A stretch of 64,000 nt of DNA from Nereocystis luetkeana. Lineage: Eukaryota; Sar; Phaeophyceae; Laminariales; Laminariaceae. Below the pieces are notes generated by a model. The model was not told the origin of the DNA. It saw nothing but the letters and a program-made list of their open reading frames with translations, and did no database searches. Made by a program: the position numbers and the translations under genes. Where the stretch lies: contig JARUPZ010000026.1 of assembly GCA_031213475.1 (NCBI GenBank), positions 4,949,567 to 5,013,566 of the forward strand, given 5' to 3'. Positions 3,301 to 57,200 of this stretch are shown here, one piece after another. The stretch's first letter is position 1, and each line of letters begins with the position of its first letter.

Positions 3301-6300
3301 GTGCGCTTTTTGGCCGAAACATTTTCTGCCTGGCGGAGCTCCTCGAGTGAGGAACTACATACGTGCAGTACCCGGTGTCTGCGCACCTTTTGTTTTTGTA
3401 ACGCGGGCTACAATGGGAGAGGTACTACATCAGTAGGCGACATGTGTTGAGAACTTGGGAGCTGAAAAAATCAGGCTGAATATATTTTCCACATATAGCT
3501 CAAGATTTTTTAAGGCTAAGCGTTTGTGCTCAACCAGGGACGCCACACTCCATCCTATCTATGGCAGCCTGTAAGCGCGCAGTATGTTCAACGTTGGCAC
3601 CACAATATTACGGGGGGCCATAGTTAATAGGACCTATGGCATACATTAAAACCTATATATTTGACCATTTTTACTAACTGTATTTGGTCCTATTAACTAT
3701 GGTCCCCCGTAATAGTAAGCCGCGAGCCTCAGCCGGAATAGGAGAGATTCTTAACCGCTGTCGCGTACCGTACTGTACCTTTATTCGGCCAAACTATTTA
3801 TTGCGACTGCATTCTACAACCATCGAAGCTGAGGAACTCCCTCCCCAATATCGTTCGTTTTCAGTATAGACCTCGTAGGTCCTGGGGTTTTGACTGCTCC
3901 TTGGGTCATACTCGTACCACGTTTCTTGGAACGACCGACCCGCGAGAGGTATGGCTCGGCCCGTGAACATCCCACGCTGAATTCACTACAGTAGTCGTGT
4001 TCTAAGTCCAACCAACAGAATCGCTTACCCCTGTCCCCCATCTTCTATGATCAGGTTGGAGGCAGGGGCGCCGTAACGTCCACGGTGGCGAGCACCAAGA
4101 AGCAGGTGCTCATGCTCCAGCGCCGTAGCGTCGAGGTCCTGTCGCGCTCCGACGGGGCCGGCGTCAGCGACCCCAGCGACAGAAGCGGCCGACAGAGCGG
4201 AAGGGGCGCCGCCAGGTGGGGCTTCGCGTCCGGCTTTAGAACCGACCGGTGGCAGCGATTCAGAGAAAGCGCGTCCGCACGCCGAGGAAGCAGCAGCAGT
4301 AGCAGCGTTGATAACAGCACCGTCGGCGGCGGCGGCGGTGGCGGCGGCGGCGGTGGCGGTGGCGGGGGAAGCGGCGGCAACGGTGGTGATGGTGGCGGCA
4401 CTAACTGGAAAACCATCGCCGGAAATAATGGCGTCAGGGGTGGTGGAGGCGTTCCGGTGAAACCTCAGGTCCCCTCGCACGAGGGGGTGGGGGTGGAGGC
4501 GGCGGCGGCGGCGGCTGTATTCTCCCAAGGAAGTGTCAGCAGTGAACTTTGTTTGACACCGGCGTTGGCACCTGTCAGTGAGGATGCGATCGGTGAAGCA
4601 GCAGCGCCCGCCTTTTTCGGTGTGAACGGCGGTACCAAGCCCGACTCGGCGATGACCGGGGCTTATGCAGGTGGTTGTGGTGGTGGTGGTGGTGGTGGTG
4701 GTGGTGGTGGTGGTGGTGGTGGCCCGGGGCAAACCGGTCGAAATGAGGGCCGAGGGGTGGTGCGCGATAAGAACGCACCGAAACAAGAGGAGAGTACGGC
4801 CGCCGGGCGGATCGGAGCTTTCCTGGCTGGGCTGCCGCTGTCGAAGTTCAAGATTGTCATAGGTGGGCAAGCACAAGTTCCTTGTTCTTGATGTAACGAA
4901 TTGTGTTCAAGCCACCTCTATTCATAGGACATTCTGAGGCTTTAAATAAAAACCTGTTGGTTGACGGTTTTTTAGAACCGCAGTCCCGTTTTGGGGGCAA
5001 AGCACTCAAATTTCAAGTAGTCTGTCCCCAAAACGGGACTGCGGCTCTAAAGGGGTTAAACACCAACAACAAAAACTGGGAGGTCGCGTTCTCACTGCAG
5101 TCGTGGGAAGTATTCCCGCGTAAACGCTGTTATTTTTTCAAAGGTCGCCAAACCCAACCCGCTCGTTTGTCGCTTCGCCGTGCTTGGGGGTTTTCTCCGC
5201 GCGTCAACCACGACACCACCTGCTGTTTCGGAACCCGCGACCTACGCTCATAAGGAAAGCTTACCGCTTTCTAGTAGTAGGTACCAGGTACTCGACACTA
5301 TGGTTGGCGCATGCTGAGCGTTTGTGTAGGAGGGGCAAAGAATACTTACCCTAACCGCAGTCCCGTTTTGGAGACAAAACAGTCAAAATTATGAGCAGTG
5401 TGTCCCCAAAACGGGACTGCAGCTCTAAAATGGCTAAGAGCGTTGAGCTAGCTCGACAGCGACGGCCAGCAAGGAAGAGTGCTAAGGTAGAACGTTTCGA
5501 TTTTCGGAAATGCTCTTTTTTTTTGGTGCCACAGGTACGTCCGGAATCACCTCTTGTTCGATATTTTGGCGAACCATTCCCGTACTCTGGGGAAAAACAA
5601 AAACAAAAACATAATCGAGCGCTGAAAAAGAAACGATGGCACCCACCCCCTGTCCGAGCCCAGCGCTCTTCACGGTAGACAATGGTTGATTAACGAGGTT
5701 GGGAGATGTTTTGTGTGTCGGCGGTGCTTTTCAGCTTGCTTTTTATTTTCTCTTCAGAACTCAGCCGCCGACTGATGTGCGGTATGATACTGTTGCCGAG
5801 TAATAAAACTACTGCAGTTTTCGTGATGAGCCTGTTTTGCCTGGTCTTATCGCCCGTGAAAAACGGAAACCGTAAAAATTGGGTGCCCCTACCGTGTTCG
5901 ACGCCATGGTTGACTACGAGGAAGACTTGCCCTACATACACATTGGACGGCGGTTGCGTTGGGATGTTTTGTGTGTCGGGCGGAGCTCAGCTCGCTAGTT
6001 TCTCTCGCAAGGTTGCTGAGTGAGGTACAAATCACTCTCTCTCTGTCTCGAAAGTACAAGGACCATTTTAATCAAGCACGGACTTACAAACGGCGCATGC
6101 GCGCAAGGACAAAAGTCGTTCGCCCCCAAGTGAGCGAGGGGCCTCAGAACATATTTTACGAGGAGGAGGAAGGGGGGGGTGTACTCGATAGGAGAGATGT
6201 ACTCGATCTCATGCATGGCCATAGTCGTATGACCACAGACCCTCGCACCCCTACAATGCCGGGACGGAGCATGTCGGGTTTTCACCGACCAGGCAGACAT

Positions 6301-9300: not shown

Positions 9301-12300
9301 TGCGCCTTCTGTCATGCTCTGTTCTGTTATGTTATGTTATGCTCCGTTCTGTTTTGTTTCTTTGGGTTGGGTTGGGTTGGGTCGGGTTGGGATGGGTTGT
9401 ATCGTCTTGTGTTATGTTATGCTCTGTTCTATTGTGTTGGGTTGGGTCGGGTTGGGATGGGTTGTATCGTCTTGTGTTATGTTATGCTCTGTTCTATTGT
9501 GTTGTGTTGTGTTGTGCTGTGTTGTGTTGTGTTGTGTTGTGTTGTGCTGTGTTGTGCTGTGCTGTGTTGTGCCACTACTGCTACTACTGCTACTACTACT
9601 GCTACTACTACTACTGCTACTACTACTGCTACTACTACTACTATTAATACCACTACTGCTACTTAGATAATTGCTACTGCCGCTTCTACCAATATTAATG
9701 CTACTACTGTATCATTACTGCCACGAATATTAATGGTATTGCAAATACTACAGCAGCACTGCTACACAAAAAACGCCGGCACCTGCGTGAAAACCGTCTT
9801 CGCTTCTCCGGCGCGCGCAGGACCGTGACCATCGGGCCCTTAATCCTCCTAGGACTCTTGGGAGTCACCTTTTACCTAGGATCCAGACCGGAAAGACCGC
9901 GCATCGCAACGCTCGACGAGCTCAGCGATAGATCGAAATACAGACAAAACACCCTAGGGGGCGAGGGTCGCCGCGTCACCTCTACCACAACCACGGACGT
10001 GTCGGCACCTCTCGGCGACACACCCGATGCAAACGCCGGTAGCACTTTGGGGGCGTCTCAACATCAATCGACGGCGGGGGAGAAGGGGACGACGAGCCAG
10101 AGCGGCGCGCCACCCCCCACCGACCGGTCAGGCCTAACAGCGGGCGACCGCAACAGCTGGATCATCCATGTCGATGATTCGGGTGCGGCGCAGGAGGGGC
10201 GGCGGGTGTCGTCGGCACAGTCCGGGCGTGTCGTCGAAAGAGACGACTTCGTTTCGAGACGATCCGTTCGGAGCATCTGGAAGGCCGGGCCGGGGGACAA
10301 GACGGACCTGAATCAGGTGAGCAAGCAGAAAGGATTACACGCAGCGGGAGGGGTGGACGGGGTGTGCTCATCATCATGCATGGGCGTAGTCGTTTTACCG
10401 GGGGGGGTGGGGGTGGGGGGGGGGGGGGGTACTCGATAGGAGAGACGTACTCGAGCTCATGCATGGCCGTAGTCGTATGACCGGGCGGGGGGGGAGGGGG
10501 CACTCGTGTCATGCATGGCCGCACTCATACGAAGCATAACCAAAGGCCCTCGCGTCCCTACAATGCCAAGACGGGGCAGGTCGGCTTTTTGCCGATCAGG
10601 CAGACATGGTCTGCACCAAGCGGGGGGGGAGGGGGGGGGGGGGTTCGCATGTGTTGCCTGCCTTAATCATTTGACCATTGACCACGCATCCCATTCGAGG
10701 CAGAGCACCGTTACTACTCCTAATAGAGGCACCTTCGGCATTTGTGCACTCATTATGTTGTTGTTCCACGTATTCCATAGGAATGTTTTGATGGTCTTAT
10801 CCCCTTCCTGATTCGCCGTCTGCGTGGCCACCGTCCCCTGGGATGGGCTCAATTGTCCCGCAGGGCCTTGCTGACTCCATTGTTCTCCTCTTATGCGATG
10901 TATTTGATGCCGCACACCAACCGTCCGTCCCTCCGACGCTATCGAGGTGACAAGACTTTACTTTTCTGTGCTTGGCGAGTTGTGAGGTGCCGATCCCACC
11001 GCATATACTATGTGCTATCTTTCGCCACCTGCAAAAAAAAAGAAGGAAAACTTTGTGTACCCAGCAGCAGTTCATTGCCACGCTGCCGAGGTGGCCCTCT
11101 TTTTGGGCTTCGGTGAGTGTCACAGCTGATGCCTGCTGCTTCGCGTTCATGCCTTCCACTTTCGTTGCCAGGCCTCTGTGTGTGTGTGTGTGTATGTTTT
11201 CCCCAGCAGTAGCAAAGTAACTGAACAGCAGTACGGGGTGTTCGTGTCGCTTGGTTAGTGAGATTCACCTGCTGCTCACAATGTCTTCGATGCTTCCGGT
11301 TCCCCTTGTGCCCCGCGTCCATCGATCGGTCCGTGTGGTGCGGTCGAAACGCGTCGCTGGTTTTGCCCCCGAGCAGACCCGTATGTGGGAGCTGTTCGCC
11401 CGACACACCACCATGACCCTCATCATTCTCTACCTCGTCTACAGCCAAGTATCCACGGTGGTGAGTGCTATTAATACAGTACAAATCGAAGGAGCTTCGC
11501 CCATCAAAATATGGACCGTTTGCATAGTGATGTGGAATCCAAAACATTCCGCACATTTGGCGGCTGTGTGGCATGCAGAGGGGTGAAAATCGACCAAGCT
11601 CTACCCCCGTACCAGGTATCCACTATATCCATCAAGGTATGGACCTTTTGTGTACGAAGTATTGTGGAATCCAAAGCATTCCACACATTTAGAGACAAAG
11701 CGATATGCAGCCTACTGGTACGTACACGGTATCATCTACCAGGTAATACTTTGGGGGGGGGGGGGTACGGGTCAAATTGTTGACGTTACGTCTTGACCTT
11801 CTGTAATTTTTATATTAATAGTTGTTTGTTTACTAAGGACATGGGCGTCTACTAAATGGGTATTGGGTGAAATTGATCAACTAGGCAGTTAAGGTCTTGA
11901 GTAAGCTTGAATTTGTTCCATTGGTTTGTTTTGAAAGAGACGATGGGCTTTCTTTCTTTTTTGTTTTTCCAGTTTTCCCTGGGGTTCGTCTTTTTTTTTC
12001 GCGTAGCCGTTTCAGGTCGCAGTTTATTCATCAGACGGCGAACGACAATAAATACCGTTGGACGCCGTGCGCGAGGGTCAATTCTTGAAAGCTACAGTAG
12101 CCCTCGCCGTTGCCATCGCCTGGAGACACGCTATGCGTAGATATATTGGCGCCTGCAGCAACATACGACACAACCGACGCAGAAGGGTGGAAGGATTCGG
12201 TCCGACCGGCACGATGTACCTGGTATCGTACATACGGATGATAAGAAAAAAACGCCGAGCGGTACTCGTAGTTTGTTTTTTTTCAAAAAAACTCCGGCGG

Positions 12301-15300
12301 ATTAGTAAAAATAAAGCTTAAGGTCACCACACTTCCACGTTCAAAGTTCGTGTCGTGTGTCAATTTAACCTATAGCTCCCGTTGCAACATTAGCACGGCC
12401 TTCTTTCCCCCCCCCGGCAGGTGTTCCAGACCTTCGCGTGCGACCATTACTCGGAGATCAACAAACACTACCTCAGGGCTGATGGCCGCATCCAGTGCGA
12501 TACCGCCGAGCACACGGGGTACATGGTGTATGCCGGCTTCATGATCGCTCTCTGTGAGTGTTTTTTTTTTTCGTGACATGGTCAAAACTTCTGAACGAGA
12601 GGAGGCAACCATGCAAGCCCCAAATATTTCTCGATGTGCCATGTCCCATTCTGTATCAACTTGCTTGCGATCAGTTTTTTATACCACGACCTGCCACGGC
12701 CTAAACTTTTCTCAATATTCTCCTGGCACCACATCTATGTATTAATAGTATCAACTACGACATTTCCACTTCGTATAACATTGGCCCACCCTGCTTTATA
12801 GGAGCAGCCCGACTTGTTTTCTAGGAAAAACGAAGCGTTTTTGCTGCTGTCAGTCAGAGCACGTGCTAAAACGTTGTATACGACCACGACTTGACGGCCC
12901 TGCCCCTTACCATCATGACGTTGCAGCGCTCTTGACATCGAGTCAGCCCTCACAGCCGGTGCTCATCGCTCGCCGTCGCCATTCATAGAGCTTTCGTCGC
13001 GTGTGTTATCACCCGCAGCGGGTTCTGCTGTGTTAATAGCTCGTAGGTGCTAGAGTGCGTGCCCCCAGCCGGCTAGCTGCAGCGGCTTCCCATGCGCCGC
13101 CTGTGGTTCTGCGTCGAGGGGAGGGTAGACAGCTCGATAATTTCTATCGTCGCTGGTTTGAGCAATGCCCTCGTCTCATTTCGGTGCTCTCGGACAACGG
13201 TCGGCGCCGCCGCCGCCGCCGCCGCCGTGTCGCCAAATATTCCGCGCGCGCGCGCAGACCCCTTCGGCATCCCCGCGGCGTTCTGCTACCTGCTTGTGCG
13301 CCAGAGGTCTGCCATCAACCCTCCCAGCGACGAGGGCCTGAAGGATTCCAGAGGAAAACGGCACGTCGTGGTAAGCAGGCACGCCCCCCCCCCCCCCCCC
13401 CCCCGGCCGCCAGTATCACGGGTACACGTGGAAAACTCGAGTAGCAATGGATGACTTGGACCCGCTTTTCATGACGACCCCAGTAGATACGGAGAACACC
13501 GGCCGGCCTGCCCTCTCGTTGAAGAAACCGAGTGTACTGGCCTACATCGTCACGACGGTGTCGTTCGAGAAAATGCCTCCTCGTAACGACAAACGCCTCC
13601 GGTTTTTTGTGGCGATGGCAGTATATTAGCAAAGAGTCCTTTCGTCGAATGAGGGGGATAACAGCGTGCTATTACGCGGTACAGGCACTTGATAGAACAT
13701 TTCTTTTGGTAGAAACGTGTTCTGGATGACGGGAGGCTCCTAAACCCAAAATCATCGGGATTTTCCTCCTGTGCTGCAAGTATTGTAAATTGTTATCGAT
13801 GTGTTCTTATTATCAGGCCGTGGGATTTTTCATCGGGTATTAATAGTAGGTAGCCTTTGCTCTTCCCTTCAAAATCAGTTTTAGGAGCTCCTTAAGGTCA
13901 ATTCAGGAGAATTTTTCCCGGGGGGGGGGGGGGGGGGGGGGGGGGATGTTGCACCTCTACCCTACCAGTATGTTTCAATCATTTTTTGTCCCCCCGGATT
14001 CAGAAAATAAACAAATCCCCATCTTTTTTTTCTACATACATGCTCACGCTGAGTTCGCTTTTTCTCTTTTTGGAGTGGTCGAAAAATCGAAATCTAGATC
14101 TCGAAACTGAACGGCGCAGGGAACAAAAAGACGTGATAACGTGATCCGATATAATTGATCATAAACGCATGAGGTGCAAATTCGGGTGAGAGACAGGGCG
14201 TGTTCCACGCAATTAAAATTCAATAACCTCATCGAAGATAACCTCTCCGGCTTGCATCCCCCCCCCCGCCCCCCCCCCCGTCCCCGGAAAATGAGGCTCA
14301 GCTTTTTTTTCGCGGAATTCTTTGTCAGGGTTTGTTTCGCCAGATTTGGCAAATTTTAGTTGTTTTTTGAAAAAAAAACGACTCTTGAATAAAAACTGGC
14401 CAAAATGATGAAAAACAAAAAAGAAGAATTTTGCCAAAATTCCACAAACTTGCCAACGAAGGGCTGGGGAGGAAGACCGCACGTTATCGTACCACTTCGT
14501 GGCTCTCTCATCTTGGATCTCAGAAACACGGTGCCGAAGAAAGTGGGTGTACACCTCGCACGGACACCGATCTAGGTCCACCAGGTTCCCAAGATCTGGG
14601 AGTTCGCAAAAAAGGGCGGGCCCCTTGTTACCACTACGGGGGGCCATAGTTAATAATAGGACCTACCAGGTATGGTATACATAAAAACCTACCAGGTACC
14701 TGGTACCTGGTATATATTTAACCATGTTTGCTATTACGGGGGGCCATAGTTAACAGGACCAAATATTGTCAGTAAAAATGGTTAAACATATAGGTTTTTA
14801 TGTATACCATAGGTCCTGTTAACTATGGTCCCCCGTAATAAGAATATTTGGTCCTGTTAACTATGGTCCCCCGCAATACCTCCCCCTTAACATGGTGGCG
14901 AGTACAACACGTCACTCATCTTTTTGCCGCGTTTTTTGCGCGTCAAATATATACGACAATATATGTGTACGCATGACGTATGCCTGGTCCTGCAGGCGAC
15001 CACGATACCAACATTTTTTTTGAAATAAATAAATGTGTACGGGTGCTGCAGATATTTTTTTTTACCATGCGCGCACTGCTGTTTGCACGGCCTGTTCGCT
15101 TTACTTCGCGAAATAATATCAGGAAGTCTAGAGGATGGAGCCACAAAATGGTGCGATAACGTGCGGTCTAATCTCCCCCCAAAAAATATAGACCAGGTAT
15201 ATTTTGCGAGAAAAAAAAAAAAAAAAAGCTTGAGCAAAATTGGTAAAATCCAACTGAAACTTGGTGAATTATTTGGCAAACCAGTGTCGTTCGAAACGGG

Positions 15301-18300
15301 ACGACGGCAGTGTGGTGGCGGCACATTCAAGGTTGGTCCAGGCGAGGGAAATGGCAAATATAATTGATGAGAGTTGTTGTAGTATCTGAAATGGGCACCC
15401 TCCGCGTTACCTCCCGGGAGACACGAGTGCGAGCGTTCAACTCATCCACACCCAAGACGAGATAGATCATCGATTTTCACCTGATGAGCTACTGCTGTAG
15501 ATTTTTCAGGGGAGGCGTATCCCTGATCTGTATGATCTGTATGATCTGTACGATATGTATGTTTCAGCTTATGTTGCCCGGTGGGTGAGACCCGCATGAT
15601 CTGCATGGTCTACGAGCACATAATTTCTGGGTTGGATCTGTATGACACCTACAGATCCTGCACAACCTCTCACAACGGTAAAGCTGAGGCACTAGACGAT
15701 CTACAACTGTAGTAGATAGATAGATCAGATAGATCATCGCCTGTCTGTCCGAGGCGCGACCTGATGCCGGGCTGAGCTGCCTATCAGGGCGGGCCGAGTT
15801 GACCGAGCTCAACTCAGGGCCAGCATCGCTGAAGCACCCGAGTCGGATGATCACCCTACGTCAACACGAGTTGAGTTAATAAGAAACGAATTCATTTGTA
15901 GCCGAGTTGACTCCTGCCCCACGGAGAAAAAGTGCGCAAAATACCGGACCGACTGTTTGGTGTGGGCGACGTTTCCCAACAGCAAGGAGCAGCATCCCTC
16001 ATACCCCGAGCTACTTACCTCCCTAGGAAACCCGGGGATGCCGAGGACGCAGACCTTCCGGTTCTCCAAATGAACACCGTAAGGTAAACCATACCAGGTA
16101 TGGACTATTTTCAAGAAAATGCAACAAGTCATCAAAAACCAGCCGCTTTTTTAAAAAAGTACCAGGTACAATTTAGATATCCTTAGTGACTCCGACAATT
16201 TCGGAGGGTATACATAATAAAGGCACACATGTATAATCTATACACGAGAGGTAGAGGAAGGAAACAGAATAGAATAAACCCAACCCGACCGAAAAAAAAA
16301 ACTCCGCAAAACCCCCCTGACAACTTGTTCACTTCCTTGAGCAGACCCATCCACCAGCAAGAAATATATCGTGGGGCTCAAAAATGCATGCGACCACAAT
16401 ACTTCGTGCCGACGAGGAGGGATGCCAAGGTTGAGGAATGCAGTCGGAATGACCCTTTTGGGACTGCAGTCCCGTGTTCTTTTTTGTTTTGTTGTTGATT
16501 TTGTTGATTATTTATTGTCACTTTTTTTATTTCCATCTTGACGCGTAGGAGGTGTTACCCTCGGCGACCTCCTGGAACAAGCCGTGGTCAGTCACTGCGA
16601 ACACAAAACAAGACCTGCTGCTGGCTGTCTGCGCTTCGAACGCTTCGCTCGTCAACCTGACCACACGACACGAGCAAGCAGGCGCAACGCCTTCCCCCCC
16701 CCCCCCCCCCCCCCCGCCCCCACGCCTCACGGAATAAAGGGCTTCTACTATTTCCTCCTTGCTTTCCTTCCTGCTCTCCCGGCGTAACTCATGCTCGTGG
16801 TCCTGCTCGTGGTCCTGCCTGTGCTCCCTTTCCGATGTTTTCGTTGCAGAACGAGAAGATCAACCAGCGCGCTAGTGATGAAAGCATCGCGCCGACTGCC
16901 TTCCTCTGGAACTCCTACTACCCCAACCGCTACTATTTCGAGGTGCGTTTGACTTTTGCCGGACTCGCATAGCGAAAACTTCGCGGCTTCCCCTCGTCCC
17001 TCAAAGGTGTTGGCCACAAATGACGCGTACTAATACGGGGGACCATAGTTAATAGAAACTATGGCATATATAAAAAGGTATATATTTACCGATTTTTACT
17101 AACAATATTTGGTCCTATTAACTATGGTCCCCCGTAATAGTCAGTACTGCAGTACGACAGTAGACTACTGAAGTAGCGCAAACAATGCATTTGGCCTCAA
17201 TGAAGTGTATTAGTAGTCACCACTGTTTGCCGTTCTGCATGCTATTATACTGCCTTGAATGAGGCTGGAAGCCCGGTAATTACCTGGGTTCTAGTATTGG
17301 GTTCGTATTTTGTGGTACTTGGCAGGCGTATCTTAGATGGAAAACCAGGGGTTTCCCCAACGAGGCACAAGCTTGGCTCTCAGTCTCCGCGTGCACGAAA
17401 GGAATGAATAAAGCGGCGCTGCTCTTCTCCTATCTCTCTAAGCAAACAACAGACGTGAGTACCGACGAGTACCGGCTTGATAGGCTAACCTGTCCAGCCA
17501 GGGATACAAAGAAAGTGTCCAGGTATGTGCAAGCGAAGCAGTCGGCTTAGCCTTCAGTCCTTTCGTTTTTGATCCTTTAGTTCACTTTTTTTAGGTTTTG
17601 CACGTATTCTCTTCCTTGCTTGGGTAGCGTCTGAAGACACTCACTCGGTGTTGGTCCACGCGCTGCACGCGCTGTACACCTTGACCAGGCTATTATTACG
17701 GGGGACCATAGTAAATAGGACTAAATATTGTCGGTAAAAATGACCAAATATATAGGTTTTAGTGTGTACCGTAGGTCCTATTCACTACGGCCCCCCCGTA
17801 ATATTGCTACCGCTACTACGCTCCCGGCAAGTGATTTTTCCCGCCATCCGTTGCGTTCTGATTTATTTCCCGCGTTTGTGTGCGCGTGCACATGCGAACT
17901 TCTGTCCTCCGCGGCAGGTGTTCGAGTGCATGAGGCGTCTGCTGCTCACCGGCTTGCTCGTCTTCGTGCCCAACACAACGGGGCAGGTGGCCTACGGGTG
18001 CATATTCGCCTTCATCAGGTACGGACACGGGTCATGATCCCGTCTGTGCCAAGCGACTTACTTCACAGCAACAGGCACTGCTGTGCTGTATATTATAGCT
18101 GGCAGCCTGCGCTGCTCCACCAGCACCATAGAGAGGCGCTACTACTGCTCTACTACTACTGCTGTACGATGCCATCATCATCGTCATGGTGATGTTCGTT
18201 GTGCTGCTACACGCGCGTCGCGTCGCCTGCCTCCCGGCCATTTCGTGAAAGATCGATCGCCCTCGTTGTTGTACTCAAGGGTCAAGGCGGTATTATATAC

Positions 18301-19529
18301 GGGGAACCATAATTAATAGGGCCTATGGTATACATTAAAAAAAACTACCTGGTACATATTTAACCATTTTTACTAACAATATCTGGTCCTATTGACTATG
18401 CCCCCCCCGTAATATTAATATCACGGGGGACCATAGTTAACAGGACCTATGGTACACATAAAAACCTATATGTTTAACCATTTTTACTAACAATATCTGG
18501 TCCTATTGACTATGCCCCCCCCCGTAATATTAATATCACGGGGGACCATAGTTAACAGGACCTATGGTACACATAAAAACCTATATGTTTAACCATTTTT
18601 ACTAACAATATTTGGTCCTGTTAACTATGGCCCCCCGTAATAGTATAAAGATGTTTAGACTAATATTATTGTAAGGGTTTCCGGGGTTTTTTGTTTGCCT
18701 CCCGTCGTTGTGGTTTATTTCTCCATCGACGATTCGGGGAATGCTTTTATACCGTATCGATTTTTGGATCTAGATGGTGTTGTTGTCACACTTAACTCTC
18801 ACAAAAGGTGCTGGAGCGCTACTGTAGGCAGATCCGAAAATCCGTTAAAAAAAAAAAACGAAATTCGGTCGTATCAAAAAAAATACCGAACCGAACTTTT
18901 ACTTTCTACGATACCAGGGGTATATTAAACTTTCGATAAGTCGTATCGAGCGTATGTTGTCCTCCATCCATCCCCTAGCATCCCGGCTTTCGCTATGGCA
19001 GATAGTTAACAAAAACTTCAATGCATTATATCCAGTATCGAAAAAGTATCGATTAGTTTATGTTGATCGATATCGCATCAAAGTCGTTAATCGTTCGATG
19101 TCCGATATCCGATATCCAACACTTCAGCAGTAGTAGTTGAATCTCACGCTCTGCACATTTGATTATGCATGCATGCATGTGATGATTAAGGTGCTATATT
19201 TTGTTGCTGTTTGTGACGTTGCCCTTTTTCCTTTCACTTGCCGCCGCCACCGCTTCCTCCGGGTTTTCCTCCGCTTATGTTTTTCTTGTCTCCTCTGCGT
19301 TCTGACAGCTTGTTGGCGTTCGAGCTTCAGAGGCCGCACATCGACGGCTTGGAAATCCAGCTATACCGTACGGTGAGAGACAGAATAAGAAACGTCGCTC
19401 AATCAATCAATCGATCCATCAGTCAATCAACCAGTCAACGAAGCAATCAAATCGATCGATCAGGTAAGCAGTCGAACAAGCAAGCAAGCAGGGAATCAAG
19501 CAACCAAGCGATCAAGCAAACAATCATCC

Positions 19530-19569
<40 letters not shown>

Positions 19570-24293: not shown

Positions 24294-24423
24294 TATCACG
24301 GGGGACCATAGTTAATGGGACCCATGGTATACGAAGTACATACATAAAAACCTACTTCCGAGTATATATTTAACCATTTTTACTAACAATATTTGGTCCT
24401 TTTAACTATGGGTTCCCGTATTA
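24294..24423 (+). mobile_element. MITE with two extra insertions at TA
   Basis: Ends ATCACGGGGGACCATAG and ACTATGGGTTCCCGTA. Extra bases after GGTATAC (GAAGTACATAC) and after ACCTA (CTTCCGAGTA) lengthen it to about 130 bp. It lies about 180 bp beyond the proposed stop of the membrane-protein gene. Confidence 0.8.
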
Positions 24424-26716: not shown

Positions 26717-26751
<35 letters not shown>

Positions 26752-30546: not shown

Positions 30547-30578
<32 letters not shown>

Positions 30579-31215: not shown

Positions 31216-31262
31216 CCCCCCGCTCGGGAGCCGGGGGTAATCAGGATAACATTGACACCCCC

Positions 31263-31485
31263 TATTGCGGGGGCCATGGTTAATAGGACCCGTGGTATAC
31301 ATAAAAGCCTACCTGGTATATATTTAACAATTTCTACTATTACGGAGGACCACAGTAAATAGCACCTACGGTACAAACAAAAAACCTATATATTTACCTA
31401 TCATCACTAACAATATTTGGTCCTATTTACTACAGTCTCCCGTAATAACAATATTAGGTCCTATTAACTACGGTCCCCCGGAATA
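31263..31485 (+). mobile_element. Second MITE interrupted by another MITE (outer copy)
   Basis: The left half is 31263-31339 (with TACCTGGTA at 31310-31318) and the right half is 31448-31485 (ACAATATTAGGTCCTATTAA). Joined, they form a normal copy. Confidence 0.85.
31340..31445 (+). mobile_element. Inner MITE of the second nest
   Basis: TTACGGAGGACCACAGTAAA to TACAGTCTCCCGTAA, same orientation as its host copy, with TA at 31338-31339 and 31446-31447. It sits at the same internal TA as in the nest at 14635-14878. Confidence 0.88.
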
Positions 31486-34924: not shown

Positions 34925-35050
34925 TATTACGGGGGAACATAGTTAATACCAGGTACCTGGTAGGACCTATGGTATACATGAAAAAAAACTATATATTTAA
35001 CCATTTTTCTTAGCAGTATTTGGCCCTATAAAATATGGTTCCCCGTGTAT
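34925..35050 (+). mobile_element. MITE carrying TACCAGGTACCTGGTA
   Basis: The usual AGTTAATAGGACC is split: AGTTAATA, 14 extra bases, then GGACC. The extra sequence with its TA flank reads TACCAGGTACCTGGTA (34947-34962). Confidence 0.88.
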
Positions 35051-36382: not shown

Positions 36383-36399
36383 TGTACAGTCCAAGGGCA

Positions 36400-38370: not shown

Positions 38371-38384
38371 CCTCTCCTTGCAAT

Positions 38385-42000: not shown

Positions 42001-45000
42001 CATTGAAACGGTGGATCATTGTATATGGTTATATGGTATCATGCATCATACCAGGTAGGTCTTACTGTAGATTCAGTCGATACACATACATGGATAAGAA
42101 AAGCGTAACACCTATTAATAGCATCAAACTACAGGATAAGAATAAACCAGATCAACTAAAACGGTTCTGCTTAAACACTTTTAGTACCGCAGGCCCGATT
42201 TGGGGGCTAACTACTTGACATTTGACTGGTTTGTCCCCAGAAAGGGACTGCACTTCTAAAAGGGTTAACGAAATAGTGGCATGTGTCGAATCGCCGTTAT
42301 TAGGGCCTATAGGGCCAAGCAGCAACAATATTCTCCGGTCAAAGTCAACACCCTCATCCTACCCACCCTTCTTCCACCCATTTCCGCCTCTTGCCTTACC
42401 AACTGATTTCCCCCCCCCCCCCCGGAAAAGCAATCAACAACAACTAAAAAAACTCTCGAGCTGTCGAGAAAATGCGATCTACCTATCATGCATCGCCTCC
42501 ATCTTAAGCTGCCGTTATCAGAAGTGCATTATCTGTAGTATATACGTAGTGCGAAGCCAACCCAGACATAATCTCCTAGATATTTCAGAACTAGACCCTG
42601 AAGATCAGGAATATGCATGCCCCGCAAGGTACAGATCGTCACGTGGAAGTGAGTGATACTGCATCGAGGCACCGAAGAAACCGCATGCCTGGTATACATC
42701 GAATTACATCACACGCTAAATGTAGTATCCCAACATATGCGGTTTTGTATTGATGTAATACGATATAGATAAAAAACTAAATATATCGGGTTCTTCTAGG
42801 GTGAATTCTGCATAACACTACCACACTAGGGTGATAAGATAACACACCCCCCTCGGACGATTTTCACACCTGGGTTTCTCGACAACGGCGGGGACGTACT
42901 GAGTACGACCAGCGATGCGTCCATGCAACCTTCTCGACGAAATCTTCCCAAGGACACCATTTTCGTTATGTGTGCCCCCCCCAAAATTTTGGAGGAAACC
43001 GGGGCTGACATTCCTCCCAGGGTGTACGCAACCTCGCGTGTTACCCTGTACCAGGTATCTCCGTATCATAATCAACTCTGTTTATGACCGGACACTCAGC
43101 TCTAATGAGTACACCCTCCACGTCCCCTTCCCATACAAACGCAACATTAAGAAAGAAACCCCTCTCGACCTTCTACTGGCTTTTCCAAGTCACCTCAACG
43201 GGCTGGGTGAGAGAAAGTTCCGTCCTCTCCGGATAAAGCTCGGGCTCGAACGTCGCTGCAGGCAGGGGCAGCGCGACAACCTGGTGACGAAAAAGACAAG
43301 ACAAAACAAAACAAAAAAACGAGGTGTGCAAGAAAGTGCAAGCATGTGAGAGAGCGCGACGGATTCAACGAGACCACTTCTGCAATACTTTGCTGCCCAA
43401 CCTCCAGGCAAAGTACGGCAAGTCTTCGTCGACCTGTCGCAGCCCAGAAGAACAGCCCAAGGAATCGGATGCTCTAATCCGGGCCGGCACAAAAGCAAAC
43501 ATGTACGTAGGCATTTCATACCCCCGGAGACCGTAGAGCTCGCACAGGAGGCCTGCGATGACATTTTCAAACGCTCGTTTTTGTTTCTCCATAACCGATC
43601 AAGATGTCTCATTTCCGGAGGCATACCTCGTCAAGAGAGCCTTCCGAACGAAAGAAACAATGTTCGACTTGATGATCTGCAGCATCTACTCGTACAGCAG
43701 TAGCACCCTCTCCCGTTGTTGTCGAGAAAACGATACCAGGTACCACTGTCTCCGAGTATGAAGAACGTGTCGATTCAATGTTAACCGCTTTAGGCCACTT
43801 CTTATGCAGTCGGATTTACAGTAAGTTGGAAATGGTGTTATCAGCACGTTCGCAAGAGCTTTTGCCCCGAAAATGTGGGAAATTACTGTTTCTCGCCTCA
43901 GAATGGCTCGGGCTTTTCTCCAAGACCTATTTAGAGCTGTTTCCCGCTTCTCCATGCGCCCAGTTGCAGGAAATCACCTTATGTACTTTTCCGATTCAAC
44001 TGGGTCAAATACGATTACGATCCAGGATCGGATCGGGAAAAACGCTTTTTCCGATCCAACTGGGGATTGTAATCGTATTTGACCCAGTTGGGTCGGAAAA
44101 GTACCGGAGGTTATTTCCAGCAACTGGGCACCTGGAGCAGCGGAAAACAGCTCTAGATAGGTCTTGGGAGAAAAGTCCAAGTCATTCTGAGGCAAGAAAC
44201 AGCAGTTTCGCACATTTTCGGGGCAAAAACTCTTGCGAACGTGCCGATGACACAATTTCCAACTGACTGCAAATCCGACTGCATAAGAAGGGGCCTTAGA
44301 ACAGCAGTCCCGTTTTGGGGGCAATCCACTCAAATTCCAGGTAGTTTGTCCCCCAAAACGGGACTGCAGTCCTAAAAAAGGTAAACGCACATACCATCCG
44401 ACAGGGTGGTATATAGCCGAAAAGCGAGTCGCGCCCCTCCGCAGACGGGTACATACCGAGACTTTTGGCTGCGATCGGTGCCGTGCGTATCGAACCCGCT
44501 TCTCCTTCAACACTCAAAACTTCCACAATTAATAAGGCCTGTGCTCCACCCCACCCCTCTCTCCCCACGAACCCCTCACTTGCGTCGCCCGGCGAGCACG
44601 CTCCTCTTCCATCCGCACCCTGTCCCGGAACTCTTGCGCCGCTCGCTCGTGGCGCGTTTGGCTGGACAGAACAAACTCCGCCGTCTCGGTGAGTGGTCGT
44701 TCGCTGGGCTGCGGGAAGAAGCCCTGCGAGGGAGCCGGCAACGGTCGCGCCCGCACCTTGGCCGCGGCTTCTTCCTGATTGGTAATAAAATAAACGTTCC
44801 AGCAATTGGTTGTGCCGTTTCGGGGAAAACAAAAACAGAAACAGCGGCGGCATAGATAGAGCATAGGAGGTAAAGGCGGGCGGACAGATAAAAAGATAAA
44901 CAGAGTCAGAGAGGGCGAGAAAGACATGAACGGGAGAAAAAGAGGTTAGGACCAGATAGAACGAAGCGAGGGGAAAATATAGATAGGGTAGTGGCCCCCC

Positions 45001-48000: not shown

Positions 48001-51000
48001 CTGCCCTGGCCCGCCGACGCTGCCGGACCGCATGGCCGACCGCCGCTTGGTCGAGAGCATGGGCGACTCAGCAACAGTGAGGCTCTTCGGCTTCACGACC
48101 CCCCTCGGCTTAAGCTCGGCGGACGACCCGGGACCCACGTTGGCACCGGGTCTCACTCTGTCGCACGAAAACGGAAAAGAAACGGGATGACGCGGAACGC
48201 CCAATAAAAATCGGGGTATTGACTGTACTGTACTGCACCTGTGTACAGTGTAATTAGAAAACCTGACCATGATAACAGCGACAACGCAGCAACATAAAAA
48301 AGAACAGCACAACAACCTCTCATAGCTTTTCACCTTATTTGTGCGCGGCGTGTTGACTTTTGGGGAAGCATCCCCGGTCCCCGGCGACGGAAAAAACACG
48401 TGACAAACTAGAACGAAAAAAAATGAACAGCAACAACAGTGGCATCCCTAACAACAATACTAAATCCTAGCGCGATATACATAGCCATTAACACATTGAA
48501 AACATGGGACGGCCGGTACGACCGGAGTCGAATAAAAAAGGATAAAACGCTAAACCGGAATCACTCTGACGCACGCCAAAACAACCACAGTGACAGCGAC
48601 CACTAACCACAAAAACAACCGCACCATTAACAACGACCACAATAGGTCAACAACCACTAACAACAACGGAAGCAGGTACACAAAGCAACACAAACAACAA
48701 CCACAGCATGAGCAGACAGGGAAAGCTCTGCAACATATCAAAAAGCGTAGACTCGTACAGTACACAGGCCACGCCGAAAAAAAACAAAACACACAAACGA
48801 AAAGCGACAACAACAAAAACCTACACACCCCAACCACATTAAAAGAGATGAAAACACACAGAAGGGAACCGCGGCGAAAACCGCATATGTGCTAAACCGT
48901 ACCAGGCATTTACGTATACACATTTGACCAATCACCTTCCAACGCTGGAGCTGCGTCCGGTGGGCAAAGGCCTGGCCTTGAACTGCTTCGACAGCTCCTC
49001 CTCGTCCCTGCTCCGGTGCGGGCTGCACGGATCCATCCCATCCCATCCCATCCAAATGCGGTCCGTTCCATTTGATCAACCGGGTAAGCAGGCGGTACAC
49101 ACAAAGCAGTGACAATCACGGGCGGTGCGAAAAAAAAAAAGCCGACACAGCGCGCGCCACGTCAAAAACGCAATCAACATAACCCAACATAATCCACACC
49201 ACAGAAAATACCGTAGTTCCCGTTATGGAATGTTGTGCAAAACCAAAAGCCGTACCAATGAGTGCGGTGAACCCAAAACCGGAAGCCGTTTTTATTTCTG
49301 CTTTTCCCGACAGAAAACCGACATTTTGTGCGCTCCTGCGCGACACGGCAACAGGAATGAGCATATGATAGACTAAATACCTTGGAGCACGCTTGGAAGC
49401 GCGTCCGTCCGTGCTGAGGCGGAAGGGAGCCGGCTGGGTCAGCGTCTTGTCGCTGTGCTGAGGCCTGAAAACGCCCTGCTCTCCTCCAACTCCGAAGCCA
49501 TCGGGGTTGTATGGTCTGGCCTTGAACTGGTGCTGATATGACACACGGCAGCAAGAAAATACAGAAAAAAAAACCGGCAAAATATATACCGTACGTAAAG
49601 AAAAAAAGAAAAAGTGAGCATCCACATACTGCACATCCTCATGCCGAGAGAATGAAAAAACGTGAAGAGACACGAAAAAAAAACTATTTGCTTCGGAAAA
49701 TCGGGTGTTCTAAGACAGAACAACGGCGCAGCGTTATAACCCTGCGCTCCACTCACAAAAAACATTGGCCTACCCTAAAAAAAGGCAGGGCGTGTAAAAT
49801 ATTTATTAGGGCCGGTCGACCTCCAGCTGTATGGAAAAATCGTGAAGTAGTGCTCCTCAACGGGGGGTACACATTCGATAACGCCTCCGACGCCGTCTTG
49901 ACAGCGTCACATACCCGGCAACAAGGCATTCAGACATACGTGCGTAGCAGTTCGCTGGCATACCGACTGCATCCAACCGCTCCCACGAAACAAAAAAGTC
50001 GGCCTGCATTCTACTGCAAAACCAACCAATCATCAAACAAACATGTCGGCCTGCACTCCGCAGCGAAACCAACAATTTTTAGATGATCAGCGGCTGCCAC
50101 CTTATACATATCGGCTTCCACTTTCACCATGAAACCCACCGACGAGCATACTGGCCGTCTCGTCCGGCATTACACTACGAAACCCACCATAACAACAAGC
50201 CAGAAACAAGAACAACGTACAAAGTATGATGCATCGGCTTCTACTCGCTACCCATAAACACATGCAATATCGCCTTGAAATGAGATATACCAGGTAGCAC
50301 CACACTGCAAATTCGACCACAACCAGATACTTCCCCGCCGCCATGTCCGCATTCCATGGCCTCACCCCACCATAAAGACCCCACCATAAAGCCAACCAAC
50401 AGAAATATATATATATATCCTGGCACCTTTTTCATGTCGGCCAGCTCTGCTTCCTCCCTCTGCTCGCGCGAGGGCAGGTGCGACTTCACGTGGCCCGCCG
50501 CTCTCGCTTCCGTCCTAAACCTGTGACATAACACACACGTACATACAGACAAAGGCGCACACATCATTACCGACGCGTGTGTGGGAAGGGAGGGGCCGGG
50601 TGGTTACAGCACGCGGGTGAAACGATACACGTGTGCGCAAGGCTTTCACCAGAGGCATCCAAACGAAGTACCAATCGTATTTCTAACCAACACGACCACC
50701 GTCAGTAAGGTACTGAAGACGAGGCGGGCAGGAGGGCGCAGGGGGGTGCTCATGTCATGCATGGCCATAGTCGTATGACCATAGGCCCTCGCATCTCTAC
50801 GAAAATGAATGCCGAGAAGGAGCACGTCGGAATTTCACCGATCAGGAAGATAAGAGATTTCTTGCACCAAACGCGAAGCGCCGTGAGGTGTTGAACGAGT
50901 CACCTGAAGGGTGGGCCGCATCCTACCAAGGACCGCTTGTGAGACGGACTTAATGTGCAAGGATGACAGCGTCGAATGAAATCGATTAGTTTTCCGGTCT

Positions 51001-54000
51001 GGCCGGGAGGGAGGGATTACCGCACCCGGATGATACGATAAACTTGCGGGCAAGGTATTTACCCGAAGCATGAGAAAAAAAACGATCGTTTTAGAACCAA
51101 CACGTATAGATAGTGAGAAATATATGGGAAGCAGTGATGGAGAAGACAAGACCAACGATTTCGTTAGGTGTCTGACAGACGCATCGCAAACATGATAAGC
51201 CGTCTCCCACATACCACCGTAACTGCCGGGAGTGTAGGGGGAAGGAAAAGGGGGCGGAGGTAGCGGCAGACGTGGAAGTTGCAATGCAGTGGGCGACAAT
51301 AATGACGTCCGGGCAAGGTTTTTGGCGATAGCCCCGCGGAAGGCGTGGGTCACTTTCGATCAAACCAGATCAGACTACTGTTCGTTATTCAGGTACTAAC
51401 AAGGCGTGTGCAGGAAAGCAGGCAGAGGGGGAAGACACGGACCACATAATCATCTGTTGTGGAAGGTTTCACGCCAAAAGGCCCCTGTTCGGGTCAAAAG
51501 GCGGTCAAACAAAAAGCCAACCAGGGCAAACCGCAATAGGCAACAGCGGCCAGGCACGACGCCGATACAAAAAAAACACCTACTGTAAACGTTAACACAA
51601 ACATTCCGCGAGGTAAGACAACAAGAAAAAGTGCAACAACGTGAAAAGGCAACGCCTACATACAGCACTAACCCAGAACACTACGTAAAAAAAAACGCAT
51701 CGACACGAGAAGGAGCGACCGCGAACTCACTTGGGCGAGACGGGTAGCGTGGGCTTGGGTTCGACATGAGCAACAGGGGCCGGCTGGGCGTGATCGCCGG
51801 CAGGCCTGCTGCGGAAGCGGTCAGGAGTCTGCCAGGCAACAAAAAACAAAAAATGCCAGCAACATCAGCAATAGCAGCGACGACAACCACGGCAGCAAGA
51901 AGAACACCCGCAACGGTAGCAGTAGCAACAGTAGGAGCAGCCGCAAGAAGAACATAGCCTAAAGTAGCGGCAGCCAGGGACAGCAACAATAGCAACAGCA
52001 GCAGCAATACGTATAGTAGAAGCCTCAGAATCATCAGCAGTAGAACAATGTACCAAGGTAAAACGAAGCAAGCACCTGCCGGGTACATACACACCGGGTA
52101 GGACGGAGGACTGTGACCGACCGGGATTCGAAAAGCGCCGACCACGCAAAGTTAGGTTTTAGCTCGAGGCAAGGGCGTTATTGATTACGGTCGTCGGTGA
52201 AACCACCCCAGATGCAATCGTCCGTGCGGGAAATGGCGATTTTCGCAAATGAGCACAGGGCACTGGGTGTGTGCTGCGTGGAGACAGACAGCGGCACCCT
52301 TACGGAAAACACAGACACGCCCACACCTTACACAAACCTCGTCGCCAAAAATTCTGGGCGGAAAAGTAATGGCCATTGGGTAATCACATCGAAACACCAA
52401 CGCCCCCTCCACTTCCCGTCCAAAACGGTAAACTAACGATACCAATGAAAAAAACCAACGCTTACCGGCTATAACATTCTCAACAACCCCATAATAACCC
52501 ATCTCCAAATCAATCCCAAAGACCAATCAAGTCCTGCACAATAAAAAAAAAAAAAACAACTACAACAACAACAACAACAACAAAAACAGCAACAACATAA
52601 ACAACATAGTCTTGCATGCATGCCGCGCGGGGTTTCCCGAAGCGTTTGCCGCGCAAATCAACCCACCTTGTTCTCGATGCGCGCCAGCGACTCCCGGAAC
52701 GTTAGGGTCTCCTCCCTAGTTCGTGGGGTTCCCGGAGCGCTCCCGGGCGCCTTGTCGCTCCGGTTGGACTTGCTCAGGTGGAACGGAGCCGGGACGGTGG
52801 GACCCTGAATAGAAAAAAAAAAAAACGACGACGAGGCCACAACTTAGAACCGACAAAAACAGCATTGGAAGGCGACATCATCAACTCAACATCATGTACA
52901 AAAATTGAAGCAAGAATTTCGACCGAATATTCAATGGGAAAAAAACATCCCACGGCGGTGCTGGAGCTATTTTGCCCAACACGCTTATACACTGCAGCAC
53001 CTACAATAGGTGCTACGACTGCACTCCATACACGTGCTCCGTAGCTTGTTCTGACGAGCTGCTGAATCCGACTCGAGGACGATCCGAGACTGGGGCGGAG
53101 AAGTCTATCTATCCTAACACCTGCTAACCTGTCTTCCTCCTATCCGGACCGCATTTTCTGCATGAGGCCATGTAAAACCCGAAGTACACGCGTTCGAAGT
53201 ATCACACATACCTGGTAGCTTGCAAAGATGAGTTGAGACGAAATCCTCGATATCACGGCCGTTGTGTTTTATTTTCACTAATATCAATACATGCGGGGTT
53301 TCGGCTGGACAGAGGCATGTCCGCAAAGGGAGCACCAAACAATCACCCCTACCAGAAACGTCCAACCAGTTCACTACACCAGAAACTATTTAAACCAAGT
53401 CTGATAATACCATGAGGGGGAAAGCGACAAGACGCGGGCTGTTAACTCCTTTCGAGTGTTGATAATAAAATATACCACTGTGTCCCTAAATATAACGACC
53501 GTTGTTGAAAAAATTAACTATACAAACATTCCTTATATTCAGAGACATAGTGCCGAAAGCAGCGTGAGCACCCAGTTGTGTGCGAAGGTTTTTTTTGCCT
53601 GCTTGTGTGCGTAGGACTTTTTTGCTTGAGCCCGCCCGTCCCGGAGCACTCCTTGCATTCAACCATTTAAAGTCGGTCACCAACCACTGTGGAATCCAGC
53701 GATCACGGAGGAGTGGCCGTTTCTGCACAAAAAATACTCGGACAAAAGTTTGACAAGGTTTCTCCTTTCAAGTCTTATTCTTAAAAAGAGTGAAAGAGCG
53801 AAGCCGAACAAGCGAGACGGCACAGGAAAGAAAAAAGAAAGCAGAATAAAAAACAACAAAAAAACTGACGAACAGTGGAACGTGGAAGTGTGGTGAGCTA
53901 AAGCTTTATTTTTACCAATCCGCCGAAGGACAGTAAAAAACAATCAAAAGAACAAACAGTACGAACCCAACAACAACGCAAGCCTCCACTGATACTGCAC

Positions 54001-54266
54001 CTTAGGCTTCTCCTGGGCCAGAACCTCGTGTTCCTTGAGCAGAGCATTTCCCCTCGCCGGGTGAGTGGGCGAGAACCCAGCCTGCTCCGCCTGCGAAAAC
54101 AGCGGGCATACAGCAAACGAAGGCGACTATGTTTAGACATTTTCACGTCAAACGCGATTCGGGTCATCGTGTTTTACTCCCCAGCTCGTTTCGCATGCCT
54201 AGTGGCGCTAGAGTACACCACCGTACCCTGGCAAAAAGACTGTTCAGGCGGATCAAGACAAGACAG

Positions 54267-54297
<31 letters not shown>

Positions 54298-57200
54298 AGT
54301 GCAGCAGTAAATCAGAACCAAAATGTGACGCGTGAAATAATAGAGGGACATCATTTTTTTTCCGGGTTCCCCGTGGATTCTGATTAGTGTGATGGCGACA
54401 ACAGTCAGAAATAATGGCGTTTTTTGCTCGATTGTTGCTGGCGTATGATGATTCCAGAAATACCAAACCCTCTTTACTGTACGGGCGTACCAACGAGAAC
54501 CACCTAATGTGAAAACTTTGCACATCTTGGACAGAATAGATCATGACATACCCGTGTACTGTAACTCATCTACTGTAGCTCCGCGCCAGCAGCTAGCTGT
54601 GAGAGAGGTTGTGCAGGATCTGCCTAATAGGACAGATCCAACCCAGGAAACACGTGCTACTGTAGATCATGCAAATTATACAGCTCCCACCCGGCAACGT
54701 AAGCTACCGCTGTGGATCATACAAAATCAGGACTACAGTAGATGATCCATCTTCCTTGACAGATCTGGATCGTGATCTATCTGTGTCAGATACGTACATG
54801 ATCTGTCCGATGTGTGACTGAAATAATAATTCAACAACCCTGAGCGTAGTCTATTGAAAACGAAGTACCACGTGGGATTCAGCGTAGCACTCGCCGCTGG
54901 GTACGCTTTTCTGAATCCAGTTGTTGGCGTTTCTCAAAAAGTGGCTCTCACGATCTCACTAGGTGATTACCCATCCTGTACGGGTCCAAACATGTGCTGG
55001 CTGGACAACGGATAGTGGGAGTTAAAGGCATCACGAACAAGCCACGAATCGCGTACCTCCGCAACTGTCGTACCAGGTATACGATAAAACGACACACGAG
55101 CACCACCTGCGAATTGTTTGGCGCAATAACAAAAAAGTCCACGCTGGTGAAATTTCCAGCCGACACCACCCACCAGTTGCTTGATTCAACAGTTTTTTGT
55201 TTTGGGCCGGGCGATGAGAGCATCGTACCTGAGGACCGACCGCCGCGTAAACCTTGCCTCCAAGCCGCCCGATGGTCTTCATAGCGGGGCTCTCCGGGAC
55301 CTTCCCGTAGGCGGCGAGCGTACGTCAGGACAGCGAAGAATAACGGCATTAAAAAACAAAACTTTTTTTGGGTTCGGGAGGGTAGAACACGGGCCAACAC
55401 ATTTCGAACTGCACTAACGTACAGAAACAAGTATACATGCAACCCTGCCTTCAAGTATGTCTCCGAAACGGAAAATGGGATTCTGAAGGTGTTAATTAAC
55501 TGCACATGTACAAAAAAACACAAACGACCGGGTGTATCTCGTCGTAGCCCTCGAAAAGGTTACATTTGAACACGATAAAGCTAACGTAGGTACGGGGGAC
55601 TCGGGAGTGAAAGGACGGTAGGTTGCCGAAGACAAAAACTTATACTGTTTTTTGCTGCCACAACAGCAGCAGTAGTGAGTTGGACTCTTACAGCTGTGTA
55701 CTGTGTCGGCTGCTGCTGCTGCTGTGTTGACAATCTAAAAGTGGCAGCTACAGCAACGGCCACTGCGTGACGGGGGGGACGCTGATACAATTGTTGGTGC
55801 CCCGAGCTACAATGCAAGTATTCGTGAGGGACGGGCGCATCATGGGCCTTACCCACACTGCTGGGTGCTCACCATGATCTTCGGATGGTTGACAAACAAC
55901 AACAATGACAACGACCAGCAACATCATATCAACAAAACAAACGACAACGACCAGAAAAATCAACACACCAACACCACCAGCAAACAACAACAGCGTTACG
56001 ACTGTTTTGTCCGCTATGTCGGGGTTTCATACGGGTGAGGCCACAGTCTCTGCACAAGCCATACCAACAACGACGAAAAAAAAAAAAAGGTGTATCTGCT
56101 CTCACCGTTAAGGGCTTGCTGCTGCGAACGTTCCCGCTGTAGGCGGTGCGGCGGCTGCGCTCCATCATTGCCTGGTTACGCCTGTTCGGAGAAAGGAAAA
56201 AAGACAAAAAGACAAAAAAAAACAAAAGGACGAAATACGTAAGACAACACATATATATATATATATATATATTGAAAAAGGCATCGCTTGTGAAGAACAC
56301 TACTACAAAGCAAAGTACAAAATTACGGAAGTGCGACACAGACGCACTACATTGTTACGCAGTAGGCCGAGTAGGCAAGTCAGTAACTGCCATGCCATCG
56401 TACTGGATACGACAGGAACGCCATATACACGCAACGAAAGAGAGAAACTCGAAAGAAAGAATTGAAGAAAATCAGCTCGGAAATTCAGCTCAGGGTGTGT
56501 GTAATTCTGCGTGTGTTACACGTAACGACAACTAGTAGCATACCAGGTATACAACAAAATCATCATATCTCTTTCAGTACTCTCGGATACCCCCCGGCGC
56601 GCAAGCAAACCCTAGGACTGGATACATGCTTGAGATGCTCCAAAAACAGGTGTACACCCCCGACACTAATCTTCGCGTCTCGAGGTACGGAAGGTCCACA
56701 CCAACCCCCAGCCCCTGCTCGCCTGGTCATCTGCTTCATGTCTTCCTGCATGGCCTGCTGCTTTTTGAACTCCACTTCTTCCGTGGTCTCCTGCGGCTTG
56801 TCGGCCTTGAAGCGGTACCTGTTTCGTTTGGTGTCATCACAGACGCAAGGTAGCCGGCCGCGCCCCCGTCACGGACGCCGTCACGAAATACATCAGACAA
56901 GAACGCCGAACAATCGAGCCGAGCAGAGAAGCGCTCGCACAAAAATACACAAAGTGGTTCTTAGGGATATGTGGCCGCCGGGACAACCCGACCAGTCAAA
57001 ACAGAAATATCAAACATCGGTCTTACTCACACCACCAGATGTATTTGAAAGAAGTTACAAAAAACTAAAGAGGGGGGCGACGACAAAAAAATGAAGTGGA
57101 AAACTTACGTCGTGCGGAAGTTAGGTGTCTTAGGCTGTGTGAGGGGTCTCCTTCCGGTGGACTGCGATCGCGGCTTCTGCTTATGGCCGGCCGGCTGAGA

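Follow-up and report, generated by a model that had tools for sequence, protein, structure and literature searches.

In a 64,000-nucleotide stretch of the Nereocystis luetkeana genome (assembly GCA_031213475.1, contig JARUPZ010000026.1, positions 4,949,567 to 5,013,566), hereafter the window, the nine-base word TACCWGGTA (W, A or T) is strongly overrepresented, and at the loci open to comparison its seven-base unit, CCWGG plus TA, proves to have been inserted at a TA already in place. From these sequence comparisons we consider it probable, at roughly three chances in four, that the word is the excision footprint of a TA-specific cut-and-paste DNA transposon with CC(W)- ends. If the units are indeed scars of a jumping gene, its past hops could be read one by one across a 465-megabase genome.

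Abundance of TACCWGGTA

The initial annotation of the window had listed 25 copies of the word and put the chance expectation at about 0.5. We found the exact word at all 25 starts and nowhere else in the window, and Markov models of orders 0 to 4 gave expectations of 0.33 to 0.73 (0.386 at order 2); orders 5 and 6 raise the value to 2.8 and 12.4, these models being fitted to almost the entire word. Ten units lie within one family of miniature inverted-repeat transposable elements (MITEs), at 6 loci, and the 15 outside it compare with 0.33 expected there. The window also holds 14 one-mismatch relatives.

Genome-wide counts covered 465,085,209 bases in 1,987 contigs, with the pattern read backwards, which has equal composition, as control (for the full target rule described below, the flanks were reversed as well). 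TACCWGGTA was present at 182,395 places versus 1,744 for the control, an excess of about a hundredfold and a density of about one copy per 2.5 kb. The excess noticed in the initial annotation is therefore confirmed.

Insertion at a pre-existing TA

The counts that follow refer to a main sample of 264 kb, composed of the window and 200 kb of contigs C1 and C2, except where we indicate that the genome or 284 kb was used instead. Members of the MITE family are about 109 bp long and flanked by TA, and when its copies are aligned, CCWGG+TA appears as an addition at a TA that is left bare in sister copies. The proposed insertion points hold, namely AGTTAATA|GGACC at 34947, GGACCTA|TGG at 14664, and CCTA|TATATT at 14690, 18346, 20723 and 31310. 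A sixth copy of the MITE, C2 13226, lies outside the window; two of the same TAs bear units in it, and the third, judged by eye, bears a one-mismatch unit. It had been suggested as an alternative that the shared CCTA|TATATT site was inherited; this may be true of the first unit, but a single inherited event need not be assumed, since the site satisfies the target rule and the unit number differs among four window copies (3, 1, 2 and 1).

To extend the comparison beyond the MITE, we collapsed every unit to TA and sought gap-free paralogs, which were present at 38 of 122 loci (6 in MITEs and 32 elsewhere). At 24 of the 32 non-MITE loci, a paralog differed in unit number, and insertion at TA thus holds outside the MITE as well. 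The site in the best differing paralog was TA in 21 of these 24 cases, TC in 2 and CA in 1, and TA was found in 39 of 50 empty non-MITE sites overall. Empty-site examples include C1b 13233 (96.6% identity, 117 bp) and C1b 39908 (95.9%, 122 bp); at C2 39740, paralogs are 100% identical over 55 bp and just one of them has the unit, and in one family the same TA carries two units, one unit and none (C1b 34425, C1b 35029 and an empty relative). As in Tc1/mariner footprints, a formerly single TA now flanks the remnant on both sides.

A palindromic target

The units favor a 16-bp palindromic target, WA-N5-TA-N5-TW. After the 21 window loci were collapsed, the seventh base out was W in 40 of 42 flanks; outside the MITE it was W in 28 of 30, and when 15 TAs were drawn at random 20,000 times, this value was reached in 0 draws. 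In the same 42 flanks, A stands just inside position 7 in 26 and T adjoins the TA in 1. This pattern was seen again over the 119 arrays of the main sample (window included), and 290 flanks from 284 kb differ from those of all TAs in having more W at -7 (88% versus 53%), more A at -6 (52% versus 25%) and less T at -1 (6% versus 20%). Genome-wide, 42,599 of the 182,395 copies (23%) fit the two-sided rule WA-N5-[unit]-N5-TW, compared with 39 of 1,744 controls (2%), and part of this excess consists of arrays, because a tandem neighbor automatically satisfies half of the rule.

The MITE consensus contains 17 TAs with seven bases on each side. W stands at both +-7 positions of 8 of them, and the full rule fits exactly 3, which are the three that carry units (the chance of that set is 1 in 680). 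This match counts as support and not as a blind test, since the rule was partly derived from the same MITE flanks.

Stacking of units

After an insertion, each new TA has another TA seven bases away inward, so that the inner half of the rule is already in place, which would explain tandem units that share a TA. Such pairs, already described in the initial annotation, number 15,917 genome-wide versus 2 for the control; single units make up 108 of the 119 arrays in the main sample. We listed 59 tandem pairs on the plus strand of the first 2.9 Mb of contig C1 and counted their centers by eye, finding 40 equal pairs (23 AA, 17 TT) and 19 mixed pairs (14 AT, 5 TA). Given that slippage alone would yield no mixed pairs and independent hits would yield half, re-hits would seem to account for many arrays, together with a degree of duplication or a bias.

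It is a tentative proposal, to which we give less than even odds, that the scars write their own targets and loci ratchet up unit by unit, so that the genome would preserve as many as about 182,000 past hops of one now-rare family. In its boldest form, the proposal would invoke a programmed or domesticated excision system instead of selfish hops.

Form and apparent decay of the unit

Over 284 kb, 145 copies of TACCNGGTA are W-centered and 4 are S-centered, the predominant form being a W-centered palindrome like that of Sleeping Beauty footprints. Two minor forms were counted over the same 284 kb: TACCATGGTA, with 5 copies versus about 0.3 expected, and TACCGGTA, with 13 copies versus about 3 to 5. 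The target sequence WA at -7,-6 is found in 60% of 10 flanks of the former and 38% of 26 flanks of the latter, against a baseline of 13% for all TAs and 0 of 8 flanks for the S-centered TACCSGGTA, although these numbers are small. At one repeat locus, CCAGG is followed by CCGG. Both CCATGG and CCGG look like alternative joins of broken ends. The 5-nt stagger deduced in the initial annotation may not be needed. Ends of 3 nt (CCA), joined with an overlap of one base, would yield the same main product and also agree with CCATGG and CCGG, for which they appear to do no worse than a 5-nt overhang.

One-mismatch forms number 108, versus 44 for the control pattern, beside 135 intact units. Both flanks have W in 42% of one-mismatch, 79% of intact and 31% of two-mismatch forms. 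Transitions (51) are not in excess among the one-mismatch forms (57 transversions). On these figures the units seem to decay, and we read the divergence as a few per cent, with a wide error.

A resident MITE as internal control

The word TATTAATA occurs 93,112 times genome-wide versus 10,689 times for its control. Its flanks have T at -3 (.57), A at -2 (.54) and C at -1 (.52), and the insertion-site flanks of the resident MITE (TTACGGGGG..CCCCCGTAA) show.67,.69 and.50 at the same three positions (42 flanks). Moreover, TA-TTAA-TA is the remnant expected from the first and last two bases of this MITE. On this evidence, TATTAATA is probably the footprint of the TTACGGGGG MITE; the match is statistical, and two of the TATTAATA sites in the window are junctions of adjoining MITEs. 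A TA-flanked family still present in the genome is thus matched by a palindromic scar at the kind of target that it uses itself, and this lends credibility to TACCWGGTA as a footprint.

TATTAATA lies at 8272, 8451, 9642, 11469, 11813, 12740, 13838, 18413, 18528, 39782 and 42113 of the window. A MITE copy at 24294-24423 has two other insertions near TA, GAAGTACATAC and CTTCCGAGTA, which are perhaps footprints of further families. Other TA elements may likewise have left 4-nt footprints as TACGAGTA/TACTCGTA (52 versus 9.4 expected) and 3-nt footprints as TACWGTA (81 versus 44 expected).

Search for a source element

The search for elements with terminal inverted repeats covered 264-284 kb and ends of the form TACCWGG, TACC or a rule-flanked TA. 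Most of the CC-ended pairs that passed were composed of the units themselves or were repeats extending beyond the TA, and the element-like stretch at C2 60557-62002 was rejected because it belongs to a large inverted repeat. The closest candidate is a 29-bp sequence on contig C1 (C1a 28357-28385, TACCTGGCATAAATAATATAAACCAGGTA), which has CCTGG at both ends and flanks that fit the rule; it could be a tiny element, a remnant or chance. The initial annotation had interpreted TACCAGGCGCCTGGTA at 23643 as two fused element ends. The palindrome is present, but it is the only such TA-12-TA case in the main sample.

Profile searches of the genome with PF03184 (DDE_1, pogo-like) gave 28 matches, the best at 3.4e-28 and several with open frames, although duplicates are included (loci L048 and L049 show no difference over 6,957 bases). 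PF13358 gave 0 matches with 30 candidates scored, and PF01359 gave 0 matches with 3 candidates, its controls being silent as well. Two of the PF03184 matches lie in TA-flanked inverted-repeat elements. One is a 2.6-kb DDE_1 element (L047:2952-5563) with 26-bp ends CAGTGGGGGGCCC.. / CAGTGGGGGGCCCTATATAGTGCAGG; the other is found within 4.3 kb flanked by TA, with ends (CGCGACA..) that match each other at 15 of 16 bases. A TA-specific DDE transposase is therefore present: TA-specific pogo-like transposons exist in this genome, and any tie to the CCWGG scar would be putative. By eye, the CAGTGGGGGGCCCTATATAGTGCAGG ends of the L047 element resemble the ends of the window MITE.

Pfam gave no match in 6 open reading frames of the window or in 12 stop-masked translated pieces (minus strand 28-58 kb and plus strand 1-30 kb of the window), and 4 of 10 open reading frames from other loci matched retroelement and NADAR domains.

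Proposed mechanism and alternative explanations

We propose that the presumed element would insert at a TA, duplicating it, and would later be excised, leaving short 3' overhangs of its own terminal bases, CC(A/T)..., which would then be joined; overhangs of 5 nt (CCAGG) and of 3 nt (CCA, with a one-base overlap) both fit. The ends would anneal save for one A.A or T.T mismatch, and repair would turn this into A:T or T:A. Since the remnant is palindromic but for its center base, the ends can anneal, and this would explain the uniform product. With footprints adding up hop by hop and element copies being lost, the element itself may have become rare.

Several observations weigh against this reading. 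The interpretation in the initial annotation, a TA-targeting transposon with CCAGG ends, gains partial support from the genome-wide excess, insertion at TA in many unrelated sequences, paralogs with an empty TA, tandem units that share a TA and mixed A/T centers in arrays, but the 264-284 kb examined yielded no CCWGG-ended element with clear inverted repeats, and the rest of the genome was not searched for one. Among the matches listed, no filled site was recognized at paralogs of unit loci: the flank pairs are separated by 2 bp in 41 of 193 cases, by 9 bp in 28 and by at least 60 bp in 82, and the long gaps among those listed join different repeat copies. Both delimited DDE_1 elements end otherwise (CAGTGGGGGG and CGCGACA), and neither would leave CCWGG. 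In the paralog test, 11 of the 50 empty non-MITE sites align to GA, TC or CA, 8 of the 32 non-MITE loci are without any paralog of another unit number, and the 24 informative loci are not independent, five of one repeat family sharing a single empty relative (C1a 40258). Equal centers in 40 of the 59 listed pairs exceed the half expected for independent hits. Finally, nearly all excisions in rice are described as accompanied by deletions or filler (PMC4423477), and relative to such ragged products the uniformity of CCWGG is unusual; the main remnant of 5 nt also exceeds the 2-4 bp that PMC7913693 gives for footprints of Tc1/mariner elements, a usual and not a defining length, and the minor forms CCGG and CCATGG measure 4 and 6 nt.

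In one alternative there would be no longer element at all, and an enzyme, such as a domesticated TA-specific transposase, would insert a very short CCWGG duplex with TA duplication. The lack of a source element in 264-284 kb and the roughly 182,000 copies of an exact 7-bp unit that rebuilds its own target both speak for this. However, we know of no enzyme that directly inserts such a short duplex, which counts against this idea, and CCATGG and CCGG at the same target type look like end joining (in small numbers), while the target that TATTAATA has in common with a real MITE indicates that footprints probably occur in this genome. We therefore regard insertion alone as unlikely. It is very unlikely that the units are scars of germline elements removed during development, in the manner of internal eliminated sequences (IESs), the sequenced DNA retaining scars only. 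The huge number, the uniform scar and the absence of a clear filled site in the examined DNA would suit such programmed excision, but paralogs with a bare TA, one unit and two units coexist in one assembly, as befits a slow history of hits, and the one-mismatch excess suggests that the scars are inherited.

A conserved protein-binding palindrome under selection, perhaps 23 bp long and with A/T roughly a helical turn away from its center, would agree with the palindromic form and with A/T at +-11 from the center; clean 7-bp insertions at TA in many repeats, the excess of decayed forms and a copy every 2.5 kb or so make it highly improbable. Lowest in our estimation, and scarcely credible as the main process, is the spread of a 7-bp tandem repeat by slippage or tandem duplication. 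The 15,917 tandem pairs and the majority of equal centers are in its favor, but most arrays are single, 19 of the 59 listed pairs are mixed, the units do not form the one-orientation tandem arrays of a microsatellite, and the process would not place single units at the many unrelated TAs where they are seen, which already argues against it.

Comparison with known systems

The footprint of Sleeping Beauty and Frog Prince is given as C(A/T)GTA in Table 1 of PMC3878927 and is attributed in Sleeping Beauty to 3-nt overhangs (PMC7827188). TAC(A/T)GTA and the unit described here follow the same logic, with a short palindromic, W-centered remnant between two TAs, but CCWGG has 5 nt instead of 3, its target is WA-N5-TA-N5-TW, and about 182,000 of the nine-base words stand in one genome. 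With Tc1/mariner elements (mariner, pogo, Minos), the presumed element would have in common the TA target, cut-and-paste movement, staggered ends and a remnant between two TAs. For Passer, footprints of 0-4 bp are quoted (PMC9976928). The resident MITE footprint TATTAATA is likewise a TA-palindrome-TA remnant at its own preferred target in the same genome, although its remnant is TTAA, its target is TAC-TA-GTA and its element is present.

IESs of Paramecium are TA-bounded and very numerous, and their excision leaves one TA without a remnant. Unlike these, CCWGG stays between two TAs, so that excision here would not be precise.

What differs from known footprints is the length, the uniformity, the number and the target rebuilt by the scar; the source element is the missing proof. 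Elsewhere footprints are often ragged, which makes the hop history of a DNA transposon hard to read. Here, if our reading is true, uniform scars would be the main trace of the presumed element, and hop rates, targets and ages would be directly countable. The self-made target would also offer a simple model of scar stacking, and footprint length would inform on how the transposase cuts. Among the literature matches listed for the two nine-mers, excision footprints and algal transposons, no title concerned this motif, and the words "footprint" and "excision" are absent from the main text of a paper on Ectocarpus transposons (PMC12477816).

Features of the window

Coordinates of units, arrays and MITE copies in the 64-kb window
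Feature	Position	Strand
MITE reference copy without units, about 109 bp, TA-flanked, ends TTACGGGGG..CCCCCGTAA	3606..3714	+
Single unit TACCAGGTA	5282..5290	.
Single unit TACCAGGTA	11610..11618	.
Single unit TACCAGGTA	11737..11745	.
Single unit TACCTGGTA	12217..12225	.
Partial MITE copy, aligned in two pieces, two target TAs with units	14635..14733	+
Unit in MITE, insertion point GGACCTA|TGG	14664..14672	.
3-unit array (CCAGG, CCTGG, CCTGG) in MITE at CCTA|TATATT	14690..14712	.
Single unit TACCAGGTA, both sides TA at 7 bp	16092..16100	.
Single unit TACCAGGTA	16160..16168	.
MITE copy, one unit	18298..18414	+
Unit TACCTGGTA in MITE, CCTA|TATATT site	18346..18354	.
MITE copy, two units	20678..20789	-
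2-unit array in MITE, CCTA|TATATT site (reverse)	20723..20738	.
TACCAGGCGCCTGGTA, TA-12-TA palindrome	23643..23658	.
MITE copy, partial, one unit	31263..31339	+
Unit TACCTGGTA in MITE, CCTA|TATATT site	31310..31318	.
MITE copy, two units at AGTTAATA|GGACC	34925..35046	+
2-unit array (CCAGG, CCTGG) in MITE	34947..34962	.
Single unit TACCTGGTA	39772..39780	.
Single unit TACCTGGTA	40552..40560	.
Single unit TACCAGGTA	42049..42057	.
Single unit TACCAGGTA	43049..43057	.
Single unit TACCAGGTA	43734..43742	.
Single unit TACCAGGTA	50288..50296	.
Single unit TACCTGGTA	53209..53217	.
Single unit TACCAGGTA	55071..55079	.
Single unit TACCAGGTA	56541..56549	.

Other observations

Viral contigs contained 0 exact matches to the MITE end; an exact double unit was found in 9 of them, which we take as chance. 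Contig C1 starts with kilobases of a CCCTAA-type repeat (L018:51-3779), resembling a telomeric end. Within the window, positions 43792-44296 hold long nested inverted repeats with arms of 130 and 122 nt that are 84-89% complementary.

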